Source: Planotetraspora silvatica (GTDB lineage Bacteria; Actinomycetota; Actinomycetes; Streptosporangiales; Streptosporangiaceae). Taken from it: a stretch of 64,000 nt of DNA. Shown in pieces: positions 22,647 through 33,381 of the stretch. The notes beneath the pieces are model-generated. The model had not been told where the DNA came from. It made no database searches and saw only the letters and a program-made list of their open reading frames with translations. Each line of letters starts with the position of its first letter. The first letter of the stretch is position 1. The stretch lies in assembly GCF_016863315.1 (NCBI RefSeq), contig NZ_BOOQ01000031.1:62001-126000 (forward strand). Reading direction: 5' to 3'. The translations under genes and the position numbers were made by a program.

Positions 22647-22740
22647 CCCCTGGTCATGGGGTGAATCCCCGAACCTGTGCATGATCATGATCGGCGTTCG
22701 CCCTGGTGGGAGGGCATCTCGCCGAACCTGTGCATGATCA
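22647..22740. repeat. Two 41-base direct repeats, each opening with a short stem
   Basis: Units at 22647-22687 and 22700-22740 share an exact 19-base 3' part (CCGAACCTGTGCATGATCA). Their 5' parts differ in sequence but both form a C-rich/G-rich stem: CCCC with GGGG in the first and GCCCT with AGGGC in the second. They lie between the DedA gene and the GntR operon. The pattern resembles a dispersed intergenic repeat family. Confidence 0.7.
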
Positions 22741-22794: not shown

Positions 22795-22822
22795 TAATAG
22801 ATTAGAAACTTATAATCTATTA
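22795..22822. promoter_or_regulatory. Dyad TAATAGATTA-N8-TAATCTATTA, candidate GntR operator
   Basis: Perfect 10-base arms, entirely of low GC content in a GC-rich genome, ending 10 bases before the GntR start codon. It should overlap the promoter of the whole ureide/kinase operon. Autoregulation by the GntR protein is the expected role. Confidence 0.8.
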
Positions 22823-22832
22823 GGTTCCCTCT

Positions 22833-23861
22833 ATGAGGCCGACAGAGTCGACGGACTCCCCATCCGCTGAACTGCCCGTGGAGATCGACCGTGCGTCACC
22901 GCTCCCCTACCACGAGCAGATCTACCGGCTGCTGCTCGACCTGATCGTCTCCGGACGCCTGGCACCCGGTCAGAAGCTGGTGCAGGAGAAGGAGTACGCG
23001 GCGCGCCTGGGAGTCAGCCTCGCCCCGGTACGGCAGGCCATCCTGGCGCTCACCAAGGACGGCTACCTGACCAGGACACGGGGACGTGGCACCTACGTCC
23101 GCGAGGTCAAGGTCGGCACCGACATCCAGCTGCTGTCCAGCTTCACCGCGACGCTCGCCGCGACCGGCCTGCCCGTCGCCATGCGCATCCTGGCCGCGGA
23201 GACCGTCCCGGCCTCCGAGCAGGTCGCCGCCGCACTGGGGCTGCCCGTCGGAGCCGAGGTCCTCCATCTGCGCCGGGTCGCGTTCCTGGCGGGCGAGCCC
23301 GTGGTGCTGCTGTCGGCGTCGTTACCGGTGGCGCTGTTCCCCGGCCTTCCCGACGCCGACCTCAGCGGCTCGCTCTACGACCTGCTGCGCGAGCGGCACG
23401 GGACGGTGATGACCTCCGCGCGCAACGTCATCGAGGTCGTCAGGGCGCTCCCCGAACACGCCGGCCACCTCCAGGTCCCCGTCGGCGAGGCACTGCTCCG
23501 CATCGAGTCCGTCACCCGGGACCAGCGCGGCACGGCGGTGGAGTTCTCCCGGGTCCTCTACCAGGCCGACCGGTTCAGGTTCGAGATCGAAAGCCGCCCC
23601 GAACACGGCGTCGGCTTCCACCCGTCCCCGGCATCTGCCCAGCCGGCCGCCACCAGCACTCCCAGTACTCCCACCGCGACCACCGCGACCACCGCGACCA
23701 CCACGACCACCGCGACCACCGCGACCACCACGACCACCGCCTCCACTCCCCACCCCCCATCCGGCCAGACCTCCCAGGTCTCCCAGACCCCTGAGACACC
23801 CCCGACGGCACCACGCGAGAGCCCCGCCGCACCAGCGCTGCCCGGCTCCGCAGCTCCATAG
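22833..23861 (+). CDS. GntR-family regulator with UTRA domain and repetitive tail
   Basis: 342 residues. The winged helix at about 25-90 reads PYHEQIYRLLLDLIVSGRLAPGQKL, and the recognition helix lies in AARLGVSLAPVRQAILALTKDGYLTRTRGRGTYV. UTRA effector-binding domain follows (about 100-245) with VLHLRRVAFLAGEPVVLLSASLP and FSRVLYQADRFRFEI. UTRA domains typically sense sugars, amino sugars or amines. Residues 265-342 are a Pro/Thr/Ala tail encoded partly by a 9-base tandem repeat, unusual for this family. It is the first gene of the operon and probably its repressor. Confidence 0.92.
   Translation: MRPTESTDSPSAELPVEIDRASPLPYHEQIYRLLLDLIVSGRLAPGQKLVQEKEYAARLGVSLAPVRQAILALTKDGYLTRTRGRGTYVREVKVGTDIQLLSSFTATLAATGLPVAMRILAAETVPASEQVAAALGLPVGAEVLHLRRVAFLAGEPVVLLSASLPVALFPGLPDADLSGSLYDLLRERHGTVMTSARNVIEVVRALPEHAGHLQVPVGEALLRIESVTRDQRGTAVEFSRVLYQADRFRFEIESRPEHGVGFHPSPASAQPAATSTPSTPTATTATTATTTTTATTATTTTTASTPHPPSGQTSQVSQTPETPPTAPRESPAAPALPGSAAP
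23672..23740. repeat. 9-base tandem repeat inside the GntR coding region
   Basis: Seven full copies of CACCGCGAC or CACCACGAC (order G,G,G,A,G,G,A at the variable base), plus six bases of an eighth. They encode a Thr/Ala stretch in the regulator's tail. Copy number is a multiple of the codon length, so slippage would lengthen or shorten the tail without a frameshift. Confidence 0.9.
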
Positions 23862-23894
23862 CACCACCGCTCCGCAGAGAGAGGGGCCATCGCC

Positions 23895-25574
23895 GTGGCC
23901 ATACCGAGTCAACTCCCAGCGTCGTCCTCTGACGGGCAGGCAGGCGTCTTCATCCGGAACGCCACCGGGCTGATCCGCGAGGTGTCGTTCTTCGACGCCT
24001 TCGTCATGAACACCTTCGGCATGAACGTCGCGGTCGGCGGCGTCTTCCTGTTCCTCCAGGCACAGACGGCGTTCTCCGGGGGCAACATGCTGCTCTCGGT
24101 CGTCATCGGCACCGTGCTCATGGCGTTCACGCTGCTCCGGGTGTACGCGGAGTTCTCCGCCGCGATGCCGCGCTCCGGCGGGGACTACGTGTTCGTCAGC
24201 CGGACCCTGCACCCCATCCTCGGTTTCCTCCTCTCCTGGAGCCAGGGCCTCTGGATGATCTTCTTCTGGATCGGGTTCAACGCCTACTTCGCCCTGACCT
24301 TCGCGGTCCCCGCGGCGCTGGCCACCCTCTCCTCGGTCACCGGCCAGTCGGTGTGGCTCGACATGAGCAACGGCCTGCTCGCCAAGCACGACCTGCTCGG
24401 CATCACCACCCAGTGGTGGGTGCTCGGACTCGGCACGATCATCACGGTCGGCTTCGGCGTGCTCATCGTCCTGGGCGGCCAGCGCTACTGGCGGTGGCAG
24501 AAGGTCCTGTTCGCCGTCGCGGGGCTCAGCCTGCTCGTCTCCTTCGCCCTGCTGCTCTTCAGCGGCGGTCACATCTCCGCCGGCTGGAACGACTTCGCCG
24601 GCAGGAACCACGGCCTGGCCTTCGACCAGATCATCCCCGCGGCCGAGAAGGCCGGCTACACCGGCAACGGCGCGTCGTTCAGCTTCAGCGACACCCTGCT
24701 CATGCTCCCGTGGGTGTTCTTCGTCGTCGGGTACGCCCAGGGCTCCGCGCAGATCGGCGGCGAGATCAAGCGCGCGTCCAAGACCCAGTACCGGGCCATG
24801 GTCGGCGGCGTCCTGATCAACGGCCTCGTCCTCGCCCTGATCACGATCGTGCTCACCGCGCACGTGAGCCCCAAGTGGCTGGGCAGCCTGGGATACCTGG
24901 CCGCTTCCGCCCCCGACACCCTCGGCCTGCCCGCCGGGCTGCCTCCGGGGTTCAACTTCCTCGCGGCCCTGCTCACCCACAACGTCGTCCTGCTCCTCCT
25001 GATCGGCATCGGCTTCGTGATCTGGGCGGTCATGGGCACCCCGCTGTCGATGATGCAGTCGACCAGGTACATGCTGGCCTGGTCCCTGGACCGGACGGTC
25101 CCGCAGCGGCTCGGCGACGTCAGCGAGCGATTCCACACCCCGGTCAAGGCCATCGCCCTGTGCGTCGTCACCGGCGAGATCGCCCTGGTCGCGCTGGTCA
25201 ACTGGTCCGACGCCAGCCTCCTCGGCGCCCTGCTGGCGCAGATCCTGGCGTTCATCATCGTGTCGCTGGCCGGAATGGTGTTCCCGTACCGGCTGCGCAA
25301 CATCTGGGAGTCGGCCGGCGGGAAGCGCGTGCTCGGCGTCCCGGCGGTCGCCCTGGCCGGGGCGGGCGGCGTCATCGCCCTCGGCGCCCTGATGGTCATG
25401 TTCATCACCGACGACACGATCAACTCGACGTTCGCGGTCACGCGGCAGCTGTCCCTGTGGTTCATGGTCGGCGTCCTCGTGATCGGAGTCGTCTGGTACG
25501 CCGGCGCCCACCTCGTCAACAAGAGCCGGGGAGTCGACCTCGGCCTGGTCTACCGGGAGATCCCCCCGGAGTGA
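23895..25574 (+). CDS. APC-superfamily amino acid/ureide permease
   Basis: 559 residues with about 12-14 membrane spans. SFFDAFVMNTFGMNVAVGGVFLF is the first-span region, and FSAAMPRSGGDYVFVSRTLHPILGF is the conserved loop of the amino acid-polyamine-organocation family. A large loop with ARKHD/KHDLLG occurs near 155-165. The GTG at 23895 follows an AGAGAGAGGGG binding site. In this operon it should import the substrate. Its place after a GntR gene and before a PfkB-SIS gene mirrors frlR/frlA/frlB/frlD of fructoselysine operons. The transported compound is not established. Confidence 0.88.
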   Translation: MAIPSQLPASSSDGQAGVFIRNATGLIREVSFFDAFVMNTFGMNVAVGGVFLFLQAQTAFSGGNMLLSVVIGTVLMAFTLLRVYAEFSAAMPRSGGDYVFVSRTLHPILGFLLSWSQGLWMIFFWIGFNAYFALTFAVPAALATLSSVTGQSVWLDMSNGLLAKHDLLGITTQWWVLGLGTIITVGFGVLIVLGGQRYWRWQKVLFAVAGLSLLVSFALLLFSGGHISAGWNDFAGRNHGLAFDQIIPAAEKAGYTGNGASFSFSDTLLMLPWVFFVVGYAQGSAQIGGEIKRASKTQYRAMVGGVLINGLVLALITIVLTAHVSPKWLGSLGYLAASAPDTLGLPAGLPPGFNFLAALLTHNVVLLLLIGIGFVIWAVMGTPLSMMQSTRYMLAWSLDRTVPQRLGDVSERFHTPVKAIALCVVTGEIALVALVNWSDASLLGALLAQILAFIIVSLAGMVFPYRLRNIWESAGGKRVLGVPAVALAGAGGVIALGALMVMFITDDTINSTFAVTRQLSLWFMVGVLVIGVVWYAGAHLVNKSRGVDLGLVYREIPPE

Positions 25575-25623
25575 CCCTCCGCCCGCGTCCCCGCCATCCC
25601 GCGATATCGAAGGAGCCGTTCAG

Positions 25624-27684
25624 ATGCGTCCCACCCGTGCCGCCGGCCCGCGGCGAGTACTGGTCATCGGCAACCTGACCATCGACGACGTCGTACGGTC
25701 CGACGGCACGGTGCGCATGGCGAGCCCGGGCGGCAACGTCGTGTACGCGGCGCTCGCGGCGCGGCTGTGGAACCCGGCGACGGGGATCGTCACCCGGCGT
25801 GGCGACGACCTCCCCGCCGAGATCCTGACCACCCTCGAGCGCCTGGATGTGGACACCTCGGGGGTGCGGACCGTGGACGGCCCCACGATCCGCAACTGGG
25901 TGATCTACGAGGACGACGGACGGCGGCACTGGATCTACCGCACGCCCGCGGAACGCTCGACGGAGGTGGCGGTCCGGCCGGACGACATCCCCTCAGGCCG
26001 GCTGGGCGGAGCCCCGGTCGTGCACCTCGCGGCGATGCCGCTCGCCGCGGCCGCCGCCCTGGTCGAGCACATCAGGACCGAGGCCCCCGACGCCCTCATC
26101 ACCCTCGACACCCACGAGGACTGGGTGGGCGATCCCGAGGCCGTGCTCGACCTGGCCGCCCGCGTCGACGTGTTCGTCCCGAGCCGGGAGGAGCTCGCCG
26201 GGGTGACCGGCTACGACGACCCCGCCGAAGCCGCGGCCGGCCTGCGGCGGCGGGGGGTTCCCGCCGTGGTGGTGAAGCTCGGCTCAGACGGCGCGCTCGT
26301 CGACGCGGAGGGGCTGCCCGGCCAGGCGCGCGTCGCCGCCTACCCGGCCGATGTCGCGGACACCACCGGCGCCGGCGACACCTTCTGCGGTGCGCTGGCG
26401 GCCGCGCTCGCCGCGGGACTCCCCCTGCTCGACGCCGTACGGCGCGGCGCGGCGACCGCGGCCTGGGCCATCGCCGAGTTCGGGTCGCTCGCGCTGGCCG
26501 GACTCGACGCGGATACGGCACAACGAAGGTTCGAGGCCCTCCAACCCGACCACGTCCCGAGGGCCTCGGCACCGGGTTCCGCCGCCATGCCGTACGACAT
26601 CGACGTGATGCGCCGGGAGATCGACATGATCCCGGAAGTGATCGTCCAGCGGCTGGCCGACCCGGACGGGCAGTCGGAGCGGATCGCGCGCATCCTCACC
26701 GAACGCGGCATCGAACACCTTTTCCTGGTCGGCTGCGGCGACTCCTACTTCGCGGGCCTGGCCACCGCCCTGGCCTTCCAGCGGCACACCGCGATCTCCG
26801 CACGCGCCGTGCACGCCCTCGACTTCGCCCGTTACCAGGTGCGTTACCTGCCCGAACGCAGTGCCGTCATCTGCGTCTCGTTCTCCGGGAAGGTGGGCCG
26901 CACCACGGAGGCGGCGACGCAGGCCCGCCGCTTCGGGCACCTGTCCATCGCGCTGACCAACAACCAGACCGGCGCCCTGGCCGAGGCGGCCGAACTGGTG
27001 CTTCCCATCGGCGTGCCCACCCTGGGGTTCTCCCCCGGCACCAGCACCTACCTCGGCATGGTCGCCACCCTCGACGACCTGGCGCTGCGCTGGGCCGCCG
27101 CCCGGGGACGCGACACCACGGCCGCCCGCGACGCGCTCCTCGCGATCCCGCGGCTGGCCGAGCAGACTCTGCGGGCCAACGCCGGCTCCGCGGAGAAGGC
27201 GGCCCGCTCCCTCGCGGGGCAGAGCTGGATCACCTTCCTCGGCGGCGGTCCCAACGAGTCGTCGGCCAAGTTCGGCGCGGCCAAGCTGTTCGAAGGCCCC
27301 CAGGTCGTCGGGGTGAGCACGAACATCGAGGAATGGGCGCACGAGGAGTACTTCGTCAGCTCCGCAGGCACCCCCGTGGTCATGGTGGCGCCCTCAGGAG
27401 CGTCGGCCGACCGGGCCGCGGAGATCCTGAGTGAACTCGACTTCATCGGAGCCTTCCCGATCGTCGTGAGCGACGTCGCCCCCCGAGTGCCCGCGCTGCA
27501 CCTGCCCCTCGCCGCCGCCGTGCCGGAGGAGTTCTCGCCCCTGCTCGCCGCGCTCCCGCTGAGCCTCCTCGGATTCCATCTCGCCGAGACCCTGGGCAAG
27601 AAGAGCTACAACTTCCCCAGTGAAGCGGCGAAGACCGAGCATTACGACACGATCCACCGCATCGTGATTGGAGAGCCGGCATGA
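25624..27684 (+). CDS. PfkB-family kinase fused to an SIS sugar isomerase/deglycase domain
   Basis: 686 residues. Residues 1-320 form a complete PfkB kinase: VLVIGNLTIDDVV, the SPGGNVVYAA substrate loop, and DTTGAGDTFCG with catalytic D252. Residues 322-686 form a tandem SIS protein: LFLVGCGDSYFAG, ICVSFSGKVGRTTEA, and NIEEWAHEEYF where GlmS/FrlB proteins have their catalytic Glu/His. The SIS half even begins at a Met codon (26587), and each half has the length of a stand-alone enzyme. In fructosamine catabolism, FrlD (PfkB) phosphorylates and FrlB (SIS) cleaves the product; a fusion of the two roles is the most economical reading. It overlaps the next gene by 4 bases. Confidence 0.88.
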   Translation: MRPTRAAGPRRVLVIGNLTIDDVVRSDGTVRMASPGGNVVYAALAARLWNPATGIVTRRGDDLPAEILTTLERLDVDTSGVRTVDGPTIRNWVIYEDDGRRHWIYRTPAERSTEVAVRPDDIPSGRLGGAPVVHLAAMPLAAAAALVEHIRTEAPDALITLDTHEDWVGDPEAVLDLAARVDVFVPSREELAGVTGYDDPAEAAAGLRRRGVPAVVVKLGSDGALVDAEGLPGQARVAAYPADVADTTGAGDTFCGALAAALAAGLPLLDAVRRGAATAAWAIAEFGSLALAGLDADTAQRRFEALQPDHVPRASAPGSAAMPYDIDVMRREIDMIPEVIVQRLADPDGQSERIARILTERGIEHLFLVGCGDSYFAGLATALAFQRHTAISARAVHALDFARYQVRYLPERSAVICVSFSGKVGRTTEAATQARRFGHLSIALTNNQTGALAEAAELVLPIGVPTLGFSPGTSTYLGMVATLDDLALRWAAARGRDTTAARDALLAIPRLAEQTLRANAGSAEKAARSLAGQSWITFLGGGPNESSAKFGAAKLFEGPQVVGVSTNIEEWAHEEYFVSSAGTPVVMVAPSGASADRAAEILSELDFIGAFPIVVSDVAPRVPALHLPLAAAVPEEFSPLLAALPLSLLGFHLAETLGKKSYNFPSEAAKTEHYDTIHRIVIGEPA

Positions 27685-28496
27685 CCACCGCCGGGCCGTC
27701 TTCCGCATCCCCTCCGGGCGCGCCCCTCGCCGACATCGAGGCCGAGGCGGCCCGCCTCATCTCCGCCTTCGCCACGCGCGGCCTGGCCGTACGGCTGGTC
27801 GGCGGTCTCGCGGTCGCCCGGCACCGGCACCGCGACGTCCCCGCCACGCTGCGCCGCACCTACGGCGACATCGACCTGGTGATCCACCCGAAAGACGGCA
27901 AGGCGTTCAAATCTGCAATGGTGGACCTCGGCTACGCGCCCAACGTGCGCTTCAACAACATGCGCGGCGACCGGCGGATGTTGTTCACCGACGAGCCGAA
28001 CGGCCGCAAACTCGACGTCTTCGTCGGCGGCTTCCAGATGTGCCACAGCATGGACCTGGCCGGACGCCTGTCCCTGCATCCGGAGACCCTCTCGCCCGCC
28101 GACCTGCTCCTGACCAAACTGCAGATCGTGGAGGTCAATCGCAAGGACCTGACCGACGCCCTCACGATCCTGCTGACCCACGAGGTCGCGCCCCCCGACG
28201 TCCGCGGCGCCGATCCCGACCACGTCAGCTCCGACCGGCTCGTCGAGGTGACCAGCGGCGACTGGGGCTGGTACACGACCGTCACCGACAACCTCGCCCG
28301 CCTGCCCGAACTCGCCGCGGAGCTCCTGCCGGGACCGGAGGCGACGGCCGTCACCGACCGGGCGCGCGGGATCGCCGACACCCTGTCCGCCGCCCCGAAG
28401 TCGCTCAAGTGGCGCGCCCGCAACACCGTGGGCCGTCGTATGACCTGGTTTGACCTCCCTGACGAGATCGGAGGGCCGATCGATGCGCAGCCATGA
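27681..28496 (+). CDS. Nucleotidyltransferase-fold protein of unknown role
   Basis: 271 residues. VRLVGGLAVARH followed by YGDIDLVIHPKDGKAF gives the GG...DxD pattern of the nucleotidyltransferase fold, and RKLDVFVGGFQMCHSMDL supplies the third acidic position. TPADLLLTKLQIV-like sequence (here SPADLLLTKLQIVEVNRKDLTD) is common to the minimal NTases related to aminoglycoside transferases and AbiEii. It is translationally coupled to both neighbours. Possible roles are adenylylation of a small molecule or a regulatory function. No closer assignment is justified. Confidence 0.75.
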   Translation: MTTAGPSSASPPGAPLADIEAEAARLISAFATRGLAVRLVGGLAVARHRHRDVPATLRRTYGDIDLVIHPKDGKAFKSAMVDLGYAPNVRFNNMRGDRRMLFTDEPNGRKLDVFVGGFQMCHSMDLAGRLSLHPETLSPADLLLTKLQIVEVNRKDLTDALTILLTHEVAPPDVRGADPDHVSSDRLVEVTSGDWGWYTTVTDNLARLPELAAELLPGPEATAVTDRARGIADTLSAAPKSLKWRARNTVGRRMTWFDLPDEIGGPIDAQP

Positions 28497-29442
28497 CATC
28501 AAGATCTTCTTCGCCACCGACATCCATGGTTCCGACCGCTGCTTCCGCAAGTTCGTCAACGCCGGCAAGTTCTACGGCGCCGACGTGCTCATCATGGGCG
28601 GCGACATCACCGGCAAGATGCTCGTCCCGATCGTGGAGACCGCGGGCGGACGGTACCGGTCCCACGTGTTCGGCCGGGACCGCGAGGTGGAAGCCGAGGA
28701 ACTGCCCGCCCTGCGCAAGCTGATCGCCGACGGCGGCCTCTACGCCTACGACACCACGCCCGATGAGATCGCCGAGTTCCGCCGGCGGCCCGAACTCGTC
28801 GAGGAGACCTTCCGCAAGCGCATGCACGCGACGCTGACGGCCTGGATGTCCCTCGCGGAGGAACGCCTGGCCGGGACCGGCATCATGTGCCTGCTCGCTC
28901 CCGGCAACGACGACCCGTTCTTCATCGACGACGTGCTCCGCTCCTCCACCATGCTGATCAACCCCGAGGGACAGCTGGTCGAGCTGCCCGGAGGATTCAC
29001 GATGATCTCCGTCGGCTACTCCAACCCGACGCCGTGGGCCTCCCCCCGGGAACTGCCGGAAGACCAGCTCGCCGAGCGCATCGACCGCGAGGCCGCCAAA
29101 GTCGCCGACACCTCCAAGGCGATCTTCAACCTGCACGTGCCGCCCAAGGACACCCCGATCGACCAGGCCATGGCACTGGACGAGGAGTTCCGCCCCGTGC
29201 TGAAGTCCGGCAGCCCGGTGATCACCGGAGTCGGCTCGTCGGCCGTCCGCGACGCGATGGCGACCTACCAGCCCCTCCTCGGCCTGCACGGGCACATCCA
29301 CGAGTCCCGGGGCGAGGCCGCGATCGGCAGGTCCCGCTCGATCAACCCCGGCAGCGAGTACTCCGAAGGCGTCCTGCGCGGCGCGCTGATCAGCCTGTCG
29401 ACCAGGAAGGGCGTCCGTGGGTACCAGCTCGTCGCCGGATGA
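28483..29442 (+). CDS. Calcineurin-like metallophosphoesterase
   Basis: 319 residues from the ATG at 28483, which has GGAGGG about 7 bases upstream. All metal-binding motifs are present: D-x-H in ATDIHGSDRCF, GGD in LIMGGDITGK, GNDD in LAPGNDDPF (His is more usual in the fourth position), a His in IFNLHVPPKD, and GHxH in LGLHGHIHES. These enzymes hydrolyse phosphoesters in nucleotides, sugars or phospholipids with a dinuclear metal centre. In this operon it may remove a phosphate introduced by the PfkB kinase. Both gene ends overlap neighbours. Confidence 0.85.
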   Translation: MRSHDIKIFFATDIHGSDRCFRKFVNAGKFYGADVLIMGGDITGKMLVPIVETAGGRYRSHVFGRDREVEAEELPALRKLIADGGLYAYDTTPDEIAEFRRRPELVEETFRKRMHATLTAWMSLAEERLAGTGIMCLLAPGNDDPFFIDDVLRSSTMLINPEGQLVELPGGFTMISVGYSNPTPWASPRELPEDQLAERIDREAAKVADTSKAIFNLHVPPKDTPIDQAMALDEEFRPVLKSGSPVITGVGSSAVRDAMATYQPLLGLHGHIHESRGEAAIGRSRSINPGSEYSEGVLRGALISLSTRKGVRGYQLVAG

Positions 29443-30013
29443 CGCCCCCACGTCGCCGTCACCGGTCGTGGCCGTCATCGGTTCCGCGCGCATCGAGGAA
29501 CCCGACCCGGCCTGGCAGGAGGCCCACACCCTCGGCACCGCGCTCGCCGCACGCGGCTGGACGGTCATGACCGGCGGGTACGGCGGCCTCATGGGCGCGA
29601 CCGCACGCGGCGCCCACGAGGCCGGCGCCACCGTGATCGGGCTGCCCATGCGCGGCTGGGCGGCGCTGACCCCGAGCCCGTGGTGCACCGAGCTGCGCTG
29701 GGCCGGCGACTACTCCGACAGGCTGCGCCACCTGCTCACCGCCGACGCGGTCGTCGCCCTGCCCGGAGGGATCGGCACGCTCGCCGAGGCCGCCGTCGTC
29801 TGGTCGGCCCTGCAGACCGAGCCCTGCGCGGCCCGGCTGGTCCTGCTCGGACCGCGATGGCGCAGGCTGCGCGAGTCCTTCGCCGCCGACCTGGTCATCG
29901 GCCCCGACGACCTCGGCCTGGCGCCCGTGGCCGGCGATGTCACCGAGGCGGTCTCCCTGCTGGACGCCGCGCTGGCCTCCGGACCCGCCACCGCGCCGGG
30001 CCCCCGTGGCTGA
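29417..30013 (+). CDS. LOG-family protein (nucleoside monophosphate phosphoribohydrolase-like)
   Basis: 198 residues with a Rossmann-like fold: VVAVIGSARIEEPDPAW near the N-terminus, GGYGGLMGATARGAHEAG, and the catalytic/sugar-phosphate-binding PGGIGTLAEAAVVW (P-G-G-x-G-T-x-x-E). LOG enzymes cleave the N-glycosidic bond of nucleoside 5'-monophosphates to base and ribose 5-phosphate. Next to a PfkB kinase this could act on a phosphorylated riboside, or it could be a lysine-decarboxylase-like protein of other function. The GTG lies 26 bases inside the phosphoesterase gene. Confidence 0.8.
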   Translation: MGTSSSPDDAPTSPSPVVAVIGSARIEEPDPAWQEAHTLGTALAARGWTVMTGGYGGLMGATARGAHEAGATVIGLPMRGWAALTPSPWCTELRWAGDYSDRLRHLLTADAVVALPGGIGTLAEAAVVWSALQTEPCAARLVLLGPRWRRLRESFAADLVIGPDDLGLAPVAGDVTEAVSLLDAALASGPATAPGPRG

Positions 30014-31445
30014 CCTGCCCGCACCCTCACCAGAGGCGGCACCCGACCTCGTGATCCGGGCCGCCCGGGCCGTCACCCCCGAGGGAGAGGTCCCGGCCGT
30101 CGTGACCGTCCGGGCCGGCCGGATCGTGACGGTCGAACCGTACGTGACGGACGCACCGCCCGGCCGCGGGATGTCCGCCCGAACCCATAGCCGGTCGGCC
30201 TTCCCCAGGCGCGGCTTCGCGGAGGTCGTCGACCTCGGCCCCGACGTGGTGCTGCTCCCCGGGCTGGTCGACACACACGTGCACGTCAACGAACCCGGCC
30301 ACTCCGACTGGGAGGGCTTCGCCAGCGCCACCCTGGCCGCCGCGGCCGGCGGCATCACCACCCTCGTAGACATGCCGGTCGACAGCGTCCCCGCTACCGT
30401 CGACGTCGCGGCCCTCACCGCCAAGCGGACCGCCGCCGCCGGCCGATGCCACGTCGACGTCGGCTTCTGGGCCGGAGCCACCCCCGGCAACACCGCGGAA
30501 CTCGCCGCGCTCCACCACGCGGGCGTGCTGGGCTTCAAATGTTTCCTGGCGGACGCCGGCGCCCCCGACCTGCCGCCGCTGTCGCCCGACCAGCTCACCT
30601 CGGCGATGCGGACGCTGCGCGACTTCGACGGCCTGCTCCTCGTCCACGCCGAGAGCGACGCCGAACTCGCCGTCAGCCCGCCCGCACACGGGCGGCGCTA
30701 CGCGGACTTCCTCGCCTCACGGCCCGGCCGGGTCGAGGACACCGCCGTGGCCGCGGTCGTCGACGCCGCACGGCAAACCGGAGCACGCGCCCACATCGTC
30801 CACCTGTCCAGCGCCACCGCGCTGCCGCTGATCGCCGCCGCGCGACGCGACGGAATCAGAATCACCGCCGAGACGTGCCCCCACTACCTGGCGCTGACCG
30901 CGGAGGAGATCCCCGACGGCGCAACCGAGTATGCGTGCTGCCCGCCGATCAGGGACGCCGCCAACCGCGACCTTCTCTGGTCGGCGCTGCGCGACGGCAT
31001 CCTCGACCTCGTCGTCTCCGACCACTCCCCCTGCGCCGCCGCGCTCAAGCACCTCGACACCGGGGACTTCGGCGCCGCCTGGGGAGGCGTCTCCTCCCTC
31101 CAGCTCGCCCTGCCCGTCGTGTGGACCGAGGCCCGCGGGCGCGGGATCCCCCTGGCCGAGGTCACCCGGTGGATGAGCGAACGACCGGCGCGCCTCGCGG
31201 GCCTCACCGCCAAAGGCCGGATCGCCCCCGGCCACGACGCCGACCTGTGCGCCTTCGCCCCCGACGAGCAGTGGACGGTCCACCCGGACGACCTGCACCA
31301 CCGGCAGCCCGTCACCCCCTACGCCGGCCGCCGCCTCCACGGAGTCGTCCGCCGCACCTGGCTGCGCGGACGCGACATCGACCCGCTCCGCCCCGCCGGA
31401 CGACTGCTGACCCCTACGGCCGACCGCCTGGAGGACACCCCGTGA
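30006..31445 (+). CDS. Allantoinase/dihydropyrimidinase-type amidohydrolase
   Basis: 479 residues from the GTG at 30006. The cyclic-amidohydrolase metal site is complete: H91-x-H93 in VDTHVHVNEPG, the lysine to be carboxylated K178 in GFKCFLADAG, further His in AHIVHLSS and ETCPHYL, and D339 in VVSDHSPC. The NEPG and DHSPC sequences are typical of allantoinase (AllB), which opens the hydantoin ring of allantoin to give allantoate. An extra segment at about 55-75 (GRGMSARTHSRSAFPRRG) is not usual. An allantoicase and a hydantoin-racemase-fold protein follow directly. Confidence 0.88.
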   Translation: MADLPAPSPEAAPDLVIRAARAVTPEGEVPAVVTVRAGRIVTVEPYVTDAPPGRGMSARTHSRSAFPRRGFAEVVDLGPDVVLLPGLVDTHVHVNEPGHSDWEGFASATLAAAAGGITTLVDMPVDSVPATVDVAALTAKRTAAAGRCHVDVGFWAGATPGNTAELAALHHAGVLGFKCFLADAGAPDLPPLSPDQLTSAMRTLRDFDGLLLVHAESDAELAVSPPAHGRRYADFLASRPGRVEDTAVAAVVDAARQTGARAHIVHLSSATALPLIAAARRDGIRITAETCPHYLALTAEEIPDGATEYACCPPIRDAANRDLLWSALRDGILDLVVSDHSPCAAALKHLDTGDFGAAWGGVSSLQLALPVVWTEARGRGIPLAEVTRWMSERPARLAGLTAKGRIAPGHDADLCAFAPDEQWTVHPDDLHHRQPVTPYAGRRLHGVVRRTWLRGRDIDPLRPAGRLLTPTADRLEDTP

Positions 31446-32197
31446 AGATCCTCGTCGTCAACCCCAACACCTCGGCGTCGACGACCCGCGCCATCGAGGA
31501 GACCGCCCTGCGCGCGGCCTCACCGGGCACCGAGATCCTCGCCGTGCAGCCGGCTTACGGAGCCGACGCCATCGACTCCGCGATGGAGAGCTACCTGTCC
31601 GCGGTCGCCGTGATGGACCGCGTCCTGAGCGTCGCCGAGCCGTACGACGCCGTGGTGATGGCCGGGTTCGGCGAGCACGGGCGAGAGGGCGTGCAGGAGA
31701 TCGTCGACGTCCCCGTCCTCGACATCGCCGAGAGCTCCGCGCACGTGGCCCAGATGATCGGCCGCAGCTACTCGGTCGTCACCACCCTGCAGCGGTCGGT
31801 CGGCGCCATCGAGGACCGGCTGCGGCTCGCCGGCCTGGCCGACCGCTGCGCCTCCGTCCGCGCCTGCGGCCTGTCCACCTCGGACGTCGACCGCGACCCG
31901 GCCGCCGCCATGGAGGCGATCGTCGCGGAGGCCTCCATCGCCGTACGGTCCGACCACGCCGAGGTCGTCTGCCTCGGCTGCGGCGGCATGGCCGGCCTGG
32001 ACGAGGCCATCTCCGCACGCCTCGGAGTGCCCGTCGTCGACGGCGTCGCCGCGGGTGTGCGCCTGGCCGAGGCGGTGGTGGGACTCGGCCTGCGCACCAG
32101 CAAGGTCTGCACCTACGCGCCCCCGGAACCCAAGGAGATCACCGGGTGGCCGATTTCCCGCAACCTCGGCGGCGATGCCGGCATGGAGGCCCGATGA
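31442..32197 (+). CDS. Asp/Glu/hydantoin racemase-fold protein lacking the first catalytic Cys
   Basis: 251 residues. MKILVVNPNTSASTT is the start of hydantoin/allantoin racemases. These carry two catalytic cysteines, one in a C-F-G-D-P-G motif and one in G-C-x-G-M. Here the second is present (C180 in CLGCGGMAGL) but the first motif reads AGFGEHG, with G75 in place of Cys. A Gly/Cys pair is found in the related arylmalonate decarboxylases. The protein may therefore be a one-cysteine decarboxylase or isomerase, not an allantoin racemase. It is coupled to allantoinase and allantoicase genes by 4-base overlaps. Confidence 0.82.
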   Translation: MKILVVNPNTSASTTRAIEETALRAASPGTEILAVQPAYGADAIDSAMESYLSAVAVMDRVLSVAEPYDAVVMAGFGEHGREGVQEIVDVPVLDIAESSAHVAQMIGRSYSVVTTLQRSVGAIEDRLRLAGLADRCASVRACGLSTSDVDRDPAAAMEAIVAEASIAVRSDHAEVVCLGCGGMAGLDEAISARLGVPVVDGVAAGVRLAEAVVGLGLRTSKVCTYAPPEPKEITGWPISRNLGGDAGMEAR

Positions 32198-33381
32198 ACA
32201 CCTTCCCACTCGGAAGCGCCGACCTGGCGTCCCGCCGGCTCGGCGGCAGCGTCGTCTCCGCGAGTGACGAGTCGTTCGGCTTCAAGGAGAACCTGCTGGT
32301 CCCGGCCGCCCCCGATTTCACCCCCGGCCGCTACGACCATCGGGGTGAGATCGTCGACGGCTGGGAGACCCGGCGCAGGCGCGGCGAACCCGGCCACGAC
32401 TGGGCCGTCGTCCGGCTCGGCGCGCCCGGCGTGATCACCCGCATCGACGTGGACACCAGCTTCTTCACCGGCAACTTCCCGCCGGTCTGCCAGGTCGAGG
32501 CGTGCGGGCTCGAGGGCTATCCAGCATCCGCCGAACTCGCCGCCGCCGACTGGGCCGAGATCGTGCCGGTCAGCCCCCTCAAGGGAGACAGCCACAACCT
32601 CTTCACCGTGACCGACCTCCGCAGGTTCACCCATGTCCGCCTGTCGATCCACCCCGACGGAGGAGTCGCCCGGCTCCGCGTGCACGGCGAGGTGGTCCCC
32701 GACCCCCGGCTATGGGACGGCCTCACCATCGACCTGGCGTCGCAGGAACACGGCGGACTCGTGGTGGCCGCGAGCGACGACTTCTACAGCTCGGCCGAGG
32801 TGCTCAACCGCCCCGACCGCGCCCGCACGATGGGCGAAGGCTGGGAGACCGGCCGCCGCCGCGACGACGGCCACGACTTCGCCGTCATCAACCTCGCGGC
32901 GACCGGCCGGCTCCGCCAGATCGAGATCGACACCAGCCACTTCAAGTACAACGCCTCCGCGGAGGTCGAACTGCACGGCTGCGCGCTCGTCGACGGCACG
33001 CCGCCTCCCCCAGCCGACTCCTCCTCGTGGTTCCGGCTGCTGCCGCGCACCGCCGTACGGCCGGACACGCGGCACCTGTTCACGCTCGACCGGCCCAGCG
33101 CCCCGGTGACCGCCGTGCGGATCGACGCCTATCCCGACGGGGGCATCTCACGAGTGCGGCTCGTCGGAGCGCCGGAGCCGGGCGCCCGCCGCCGGGCGGG
33201 ACTGCGCTGGTTCGACCGGCTCCCCGACAGCCAGGCGACGGCCTGCCTGACCGGCGCCGGGGTCTCCGCGGAAGACGTCTCCGCGGTGCTGGCCGCCCGG
33301 CCGCTCGGTGAGGACCTCTCCGCGGTGCCGGCGGGCCTCGCCGTGACGGTCCTCACCGAATGGATCGACGGCCGGCCGTAA
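32194..33381 (+). CDS. alc: Allantoicase with a short C-terminal extension
   Basis: 395 residues. Two allantoicase repeats are clear: the first (about 10-165) with SDESFGFKENLL, GWETRRRRGEPGHDW and VDTSFFTGNFP, the second (about 185-335) with SDDFYSSAEVL, GWETGRRRDDGHDF and IDTSHFKYNAS. The enzyme converts allantoate to ureidoglycolate and urea. The last 60 residues, from RWFDRLPDSQATACLTGAG to the end, are additional. They look like the first two helices of OHCU decarboxylase (UraD), which would be truncated. It is the last gene of the operon; a weak hairpin follows. Confidence 0.93.
   Translation: MNTFPLGSADLASRRLGGSVVSASDESFGFKENLLVPAAPDFTPGRYDHRGEIVDGWETRRRRGEPGHDWAVVRLGAPGVITRIDVDTSFFTGNFPPVCQVEACGLEGYPASAELAAADWAEIVPVSPLKGDSHNLFTVTDLRRFTHVRLSIHPDGGVARLRVHGEVVPDPRLWDGLTIDLASQEHGGLVVAASDDFYSSAEVLNRPDRARTMGEGWETGRRRDDGHDFAVINLAATGRLRQIEIDTSHFKYNASAEVELHGCALVDGTPPPPADSSSWFRLLPRTAVRPDTRHLFTLDRPSAPVTAVRIDAYPDGGISRVRLVGAPEPGARRRAGLRWFDRLPDSQATACLTGAGVSAEDVSAVLAARPLGEDLSAVPAGLAVTVLTEWIDGRP

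Follow-up and report, generated by a model that had tools for sequence, protein, structure and literature searches.

Results

Organization of the operon

The 64,000-nucleotide stretch of the Planotetraspora silvatica genome analyzed here (contig NZ_BOOQ01000031.1, positions 62,001 to 126,000; hereafter the window) carries between positions 22833 and 33381 nine genes arranged head to tail on the forward strand (Table 1). Their products comprise a GntR/UTRA regulator, an APC-family permease, a PfkB kinase fused to a SIS domain, a nucleotidyltransferase-fold protein (NTase), a metallophosphoesterase-fold protein, a LOG-like protein and three proteins assigned to allantoin degradation. All nine open reading frames (ORFs) of the initial annotation of this DNA were recovered, and Pfam together with NCBIfam assigned families to eight of them. 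Successive intergenic gaps amount to +33, +49, -4, -14, -26, -8, -4 and -4 bases with the start codons as chosen in this analysis (including those of allantoinase at 30006 and allantoicase at 32194), and these values reproduce the previously described overlaps of 4-26 bases across the last seven genes.

Table 1. Features of the operon and its upstream region (window coordinates), with the evidence behind each assignment.
Feature	Position	Strand	Basis
Operator-like dyad, 10-bp arms, 8-bp spacer	22795..22822		Genome-unique site; AT-rich surroundings conserved in relatives
GntR/UTRA regulator	22833..23861	+	PF00392, PF07702
APC-family permease, conserved terminal motifs, REIPPE end	23895..25574	+	PF13520; tail comparison
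PfkB kinase-SIS fusion; SIS Glu557 and His573 conserved	25624..27684	+	PF00294, PF01380; residues
Nucleotidyltransferase-fold protein, probably permease module	27681..28496	+	PF14907 (weak, above cut-off); D63, D65, D112; model; trio with permease and phosphoesterase
Metallophosphoesterase-fold protein, probably permease module	28483..29442	+	Fold match; trio with permease and NTase
LOG-like protein, candidate phosphoribohydrolase	29417..30013	+	PF03641, PF18306; PGGIGTLAE; PDB relatives
Allantoinase (AllB)	30006..31445	+	TIGR03178, 520 bits (cut-off 358)
Allantoin racemase-type protein (AllR)	31442..32197	+	PDB 5lfd, E=7.8e-92
Allantoicase	32194..33381	+	TIGR02961, 368 bits (cut-off 278)

The dyad preceding the first gene, TAATAGATTA-N8-TAATCTATTA, occurs only here in the 8.66 Mb genome, even when up to 3 mismatches are allowed, and the AT-rich element surrounding it is kept upstream of the operon in all eight other genomes inspected. 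The perfect operator-like dyad indicated earlier is therefore present and genome-unique, but a perfect right arm, and hence perfect symmetry, is confined to the window and the Planotetraspora mira locus (L015). A consensus scan for sigma-70-like promoters returned none (0.2 expected), and a scan for terminator-like sites returned three (2.1 expected), none of them at a gene junction. Two repeats were also noted: CCGAACCTGTGCATGATCA is present twice shortly upstream of the operator (22669-22687 and 22722-22740), and a 9-bp tandem repeat of 7.8 copies (23671-23740) encodes a segment rich in Thr and Ala close to the C-terminal end of the GntR regulator.

Conservation of the gene set within the order

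Among 297 genomes of the order, 10, that of P. silvatica included, carry the PfkB-SIS fusion; they represent 6 of 62 genera and include P. mira, P. thailandica, Nonomuraea, two Microbispora, Sphaerisporangium and a Streptosporangiaceae metagenome-assembled genome (MAG); two further Planotetraspora genomes of this survey (G147 and G169) gave no fusion match. Gene order and strand of all nine genes are kept in 8/8 further readable genomes (9/9 with the window), at per-protein identities to the window of 64-99%; in the ninth other carrier (G212) a contig border interrupts the operon, and this genome was left out of gene-order scoring. Gene calls on the fetched stretches of relatives came from a crude caller. 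Because both halves of the operon (the kinase-SIS genes and the allantoin genes) co-occur in six genera in a conserved order, gene neighbourhood speaks against the possibility, raised with the initial annotation, that they never occur together in other genomes.

A second copy of the allantoin genes

Strong family evidence identifies the distal three genes as an allantoin set of allantoinase, allantoin racemase-type protein and allantoicase. The scores of AllB, an amidohydrolase by family, and of allantoicase lie above the cut-offs of the models in Table 1 and below those of the further allantoinase models NF004839 and NF005960 and the further allantoicase model NF010371. The racemase, a member of the Asp/Glu/hydantoin racemase family, has PDB entry 5lfd as by far its best match and shares with it the AG(F/Y)GEHG motif (AGFGEHG vs. 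AGYGEHG) and CLGCGGMAGLDE; as in 5lfd, Gly stands where one Cys would be expected, with Glu three residues on. In allantoin racemase this Glu, as Cendron is said to have found in 2016, takes over the catalytic role of the missing Cys. An arylmalonate-decarboxylase-like enzyme, indicated by a weak NCBIfam hit, was rejected, 5lfd being a far better match with the same AG(Y)GEHG motif. Entry 5LG5, of the same sequence as 5lfd, is identified as Pseudomonas fluorescens allantoin racemase in PMC12661438. These assignments agree with the allantoin-degrading function originally given to the distal genes.

Elsewhere in the same genome lies a separate purine cluster encoding OHCU decarboxylase, uricase, an amidohydrolase (which by eye reads like 8-oxoguanine deaminase; Pfam gives only Amidohydro_1), an AllB homologue and allantoicase. 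Identity with the copies in that cluster is 57% for the operon AllB and 55% for the operon allantoicase, vs. 71-93% and 69-95%, respectively, with the operon copies in the other eight genomes; this lower identity with the own-genome copies points to an ancient duplication or to separate origins of the operon genes. By repeat matches, two allantoicases are present in 10/10 fusion-bearing genomes and one each in the fusion-less G147 and G169. Thus, the ureide-degradation set of the initial annotation is confirmed in its allantoin genes, but it duplicates a canonical purine cluster that lay outside the DNA then in view.

The kinase-SIS fusion and the LOG-like protein

In sequence comparisons GlmS chains rank first for the SIS part, ahead of deaminase and deglycase-type chains. 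Its Glu236 and His252 (557 and 573 of the fusion), 16 residues apart and invariant in eight relatives, align with the corresponding pair of GlmS, of FrlB (same 16-residue spacing) and of AgaS (spacing 18), and are presumably catalytic in this fusion as well. FraB and FrlB have their general acid and general base in common (PMC9609667). Retention of the deglycase-type Glu/His pair makes the SIS domain a plausible deglycase candidate, in line with what had been proposed for it. The broader comparison with frl/fra-type kinase/deglycase genes stands in part: PfkB, SIS, GntR and APC families are all present, but the specific models score far below cut-off (FrlB 25.6 of 430, FrlD 46.9 of 247 and FrlA 23.2 of 800 bits).

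LOG enzymes cleave nucleoside monophosphates. The LOG-like protein carries PGGIGTLAE, matching PGGxGTxxE, which we take to be the LOG motif, and cytokinin riboside 5'-monophosphate phosphoribohydrolases are among its PDB relatives; its scores are below cut-off for both NF058542 (35.6 of 300 bits) and TIGR00730 (60.6 of 96 bits).

In a SIS tree of 22 rows (leaving out L064, with one in-frame stop, L040 and L041), the window groups with Nocardioides, Ktedonobacteraceae and Alphaproteobacteria MAGs with support 99/99. The APC permease, kinase, SIS, phosphoesterase and LOG are present in 4/4 lineages of this clade, kinase and SIS being separate genes in the Alphaproteobacteria MAG; NTase was seen in three of the four, the fourth (L031) being cut by a contig end.

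A recurrent permease, nucleotidyltransferase and phosphoesterase module

The phosphoesterase gave no Pfam or NCBIfam match, and its predicted model matches metallophosphoesterases. The NTase belongs to NTP_transf_5 (Table 1); its three Asp residues are invariant, and its model weakly resembles nucleotidyltransferase folds (best E=1.4e-4). A phosphoesterase match was found in 57 of 301 Chloroflexota genomes, and stretches from 20 of these 57 were compared: within 5 kb of the phosphoesterase, an APC permease was found in 18/20 and an NTase in 18/20. None of the 20 stretches contained a SIS, PfkB or LOG match and two contained BtpA; in G717 and G736, a SIS match lies about 22 kb from a phosphoesterase match on the same contig. 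The accompanying cargo varies, with an FGGY kinase and a choline-kinase-like protein recognized by Pfam and dehydrogenases and others by eye. A Halobellus plasmid holds permease, NTase and phosphoesterase close together, and Thermomicrobium holds permease and phosphoesterase. A set of tailed APC permease, NTase and metallophosphoesterase thus recurs with differing catabolic genes (L105-L124, L036, L037 and window 23895-29442).

The permeases share conserved motifs at both ends. Among the APC ORFs from the module and operon loci that reach 380 residues (L122 gave none), a C-terminal [I/L/V]Px[E/D] was read by eye from the tails in 37/37, a script pattern additionally requiring an aromatic residue, His or Leu before it was matched in 33/37, and an N-terminal motif of the RxATGLxR form occurs in 33/37. 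FrlA has neither terminal motif; because it is the sole outside control, the specificity of these motifs is not proven.

Distant kinase-SIS loci

Alignment surveys with the SIS domain (E up to 1e-60, each count including the centre genome) matched 1/396 genomes of Actinomycetota (that of P. silvatica), 10/201 in the phylum of L031, 1/198 in the phylum of L035, 3/199 in the phylum of L034 and 2/289 in the class of L033; given these low counts, this SIS type is rare and patchy. Plasmid searches matched four records for PfkB-SIS, two for the phosphoesterase, one for the NTase, one for LOG and two for the APC permease.

Neighbours of the distant loci, by Pfam and NCBIfam, include BtpA (for which a PDB search found no relative), Bmp/PnrA-like transport proteins, phosphorylase-superfamily proteins, AllG, FdrA-type proteins and DeoC. 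D-hydantoinase-type amidohydrolases beside them score below NCBIfam cut-offs, and BtpA, Bmp and dihydropyrimidinase genes are annotated on a Mesorhizobium plasmid. In 5 of 17 genomes (G864, G819, G1568, G695 and G696), SIS has a hydantoinase-type gene within 12 kb (in each case at less than 7.7 kb) vs. 0.36 expected (P=1.8e-5). This control leaves out the four plasmid loci L038-L041, presupposes that genes are placed at random and uses a limit fixed once the distances were known. The tie of the kinase-SIS pair to nucleoside or hydantoin chemistry, first put forward from the operon, is supported by more distant kin adjoining nucleoside-type transport and hydantoinase-type genes.

Three further arrangements were observed. 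L064 (84-5271) shows nucleoside hydrolase, adenine deaminase, PfkB, a PRA-isomerase homologue and SIS (with one in-frame TGA) in one run. L070 and L060 have AllG and FdrA-type (oxamate carbamoyltransferase type) genes beside PfkB-SIS-BtpA, with DeoC in L070, a set possibly representing an energy-yielding ureide route. On a plasmid of Streptosporangium sp. NBC_01495 (L039, 1578-9954), BtpA and SIS lie near GTP cyclohydrolase I, QueE and 6-carboxytetrahydropterin synthase, in what looks like a 7-deazapurine cluster.

Discussion

A tentative pathway for sugar-conjugated ureides

Judged from gene families and neighbourhoods, the nine genes may constitute one regulated operon that takes up and degrades a ureide conjugated to a sugar, an N-glycosyl (ribosyl) allantoin-type compound being the likeliest candidate; we prefer this reading while placing it slightly short of an even chance. 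The tailed APC permease would import the conjugate, its transport probably being controlled or serviced by the NTase and phosphoesterase; the PfkB domain would phosphorylate the sugar, the SIS domain would isomerize or deglycate the phosphosugar-nitrogen linkage, and LOG would hydrolyze any N-(5-phosphoribosyl) bond, with ribose 5-phosphate (or hexose phosphate) and allantoin as products. What the permease, kinase, SIS domain and LOG act on, and the order of steps, we infer from this gene content. The AllR, AllB and allantoicase steps have strong family evidence: AllR would handle the freed allantoin, AllB would open the ring and allantoicase would then release urea and ureidoglycolate. The freed allantoin may not be the S form, which would account for the presence of AllR. 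The coexistence of this racemase with OHCU decarboxylase in one genome suggests that the operon deals with allantoin other than the form made by the canonical route, which we take to be S.

Several observations weigh against this proposal. Urea-type nitrogens form Amadori products poorly, and a classical deglycase substrate is therefore awkward for allantoin. The equivalog models for FrlA, FrlB, FrlD and LOG all remain below cut-off. The hydantoinase association was computed with a distance limit chosen post hoc, the loci that carry it fall in SIS clades other than that of the window, and L062, L063, L065, L066 and L068 have no recognized nucleobase or ureide neighbour. Finally, allantoin genes near the core were not found in the stretches of L029, L031 (cut by a contig end) and L033, and by repeat matches the genomes of these three MAGs, the nearest relatives outside the family, hold no allantoicase. 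Since these stretches show the core without allantoin genes, the core can occur apart from the allantoin set, an argument against a ureide substrate in these three relatives, where it may act on something else. The pathway first sketched for the operon retains its co-occurring halves, its plausible SIS deglycase and its allantoin set, but probably not NTase and phosphoesterase as pathway enzymes, and its likeness to frl is distant.

Alternative readings

These nearest relatives (Nocardioides, Ktedonobacteraceae and Alphaproteobacteria), with kinase, SIS and LOG but no nearby allantoin genes, would fit a core for the degradation of a glycated amine, Amadori-type or other, with no connection to purines, the allantoin genes being a nitrogen-scavenging cassette joined to it under one regulator; the weak similarity of PfkB to FrlD and of SIS to FrlB (about 27%) and the weak FrlA hit of the permease point the same way. 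However, the halves are never separated in the nine assessable genomes of the family, dedicated second allantoin copies are maintained despite the canonical cluster, and more distant kin show nucleobase and hydantoin links, so that we regard this explanation as rather unlikely, if a serious contender.

A little less probable still is an oxidized or modified purine nucleoside (e.g., a urate or oxidized-guanine riboside) as substrate, from which kinase and LOG would strip the sugar, the base being or becoming a ureide and SIS handling the sugar phosphate. The known activity of LOG enzymes, the nucleoside-type ABC transporters, nucleoside hydrolase and phosphorylase-superfamily genes adjoining distant relatives, and a racemase suited to a ureide made without stereocontrol are all consistent with such a substrate; nevertheless, Pfam and NCBIfam assigned none of the operon genes to an oxidase, deaminase or uricase, the transporter is an APC permease and not a nucleoside carrier, and an ordinary nucleoside 5'-phosphate needs no SIS deglycase.

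That NTase and phosphoesterase are true pathway enzymes (e.g., nucleotidylating and then cleaving a sugar phosphate) is improbable despite their place inside the overlapping gene run and their invariant catalytic-type residues, because the Chloroflexota survey and the haloarchaeal plasmid show the pair with APC permeases and other catabolic genes, with SIS, PfkB and LOG absent from the 20 stretches (the SIS matches 22 kb away in G717 and G736 notwithstanding).

Returning to the preferred reading of a ureide-conjugate operon, NTase and phosphoesterase probably belong to the APC-permease module, where they might perhaps act as a transporter-linked, reversible nucleotidylation switch. In its boldest form, to which we give only a small chance, the operon would be the first of a class for glycosylated ureides (allantoin/hydantoin ribosides) and, in addition, the NTase and a phosphodiesterase would reversibly modify the permease, possibly at its C-terminal tail REIPPE, as a transport switch spanning haloarchaea, Chloroflexota and Actinomycetota.

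If the proposed pathway is true, bacteria use glycosylated ureides as nutrients, compounds for which we found no described pathway, and culturable actinomycetes offer a testable gene set for it. The recurrent permease, NTase and phosphoesterase set would also gain a candidate role, bearing on the control of catabolic uptake in several phyla.

Comparison with known systems

We found no published description of this gene combination. Literature searches returned no paper joining PfkB, a SIS domain and allantoinase, with most subscription journals outside their coverage, so that this is not proof of absence, and among the papers listed on allantoin ribosides, titles and abstract openings pointed to no recognizably related work. 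The same searches found no published function for the PfkB-SIS-BtpA clusters of Bacillota, Spirochaetota, Chloroflexota and a Mesorhizobium plasmid, which are accompanied by Bmp or ECF transporters and in some cases hydantoinase. These clusters share with the operon a related kinase, a SIS domain (28-30% identical) and ureide- or nucleobase-type neighbours, but they have separate kinase and SIS genes, BtpA in place of LOG and other transporters.

Among characterized routes, allantoin degradation by AllB, allantoin racemase and allantoicase is represented in full, the racemase being closest to the P. fluorescens enzyme; here, in contrast, the set is a second copy besides the canonical purine cluster and is joined to import, kinase, SIS and LOG genes. 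The frl/fra systems (E. coli FrlA-FrlB-FrlD-FrlR and Salmonella fra) provide the other point of reference: a GntR-type regulator, an APC permease, a PfkB kinase and a SIS deglycase are common to the E. coli set and the operon, whose SIS domain keeps the Glu/His pair aligned with FrlB. The operon differs in that its kinase and SIS domains are fused and only about 27% identical to FrlD and FrlB over parts of their length, its permease belongs to another APC subfamily with conserved tails, and a LOG-like protein and a complete allantoin set are added to the shared core.

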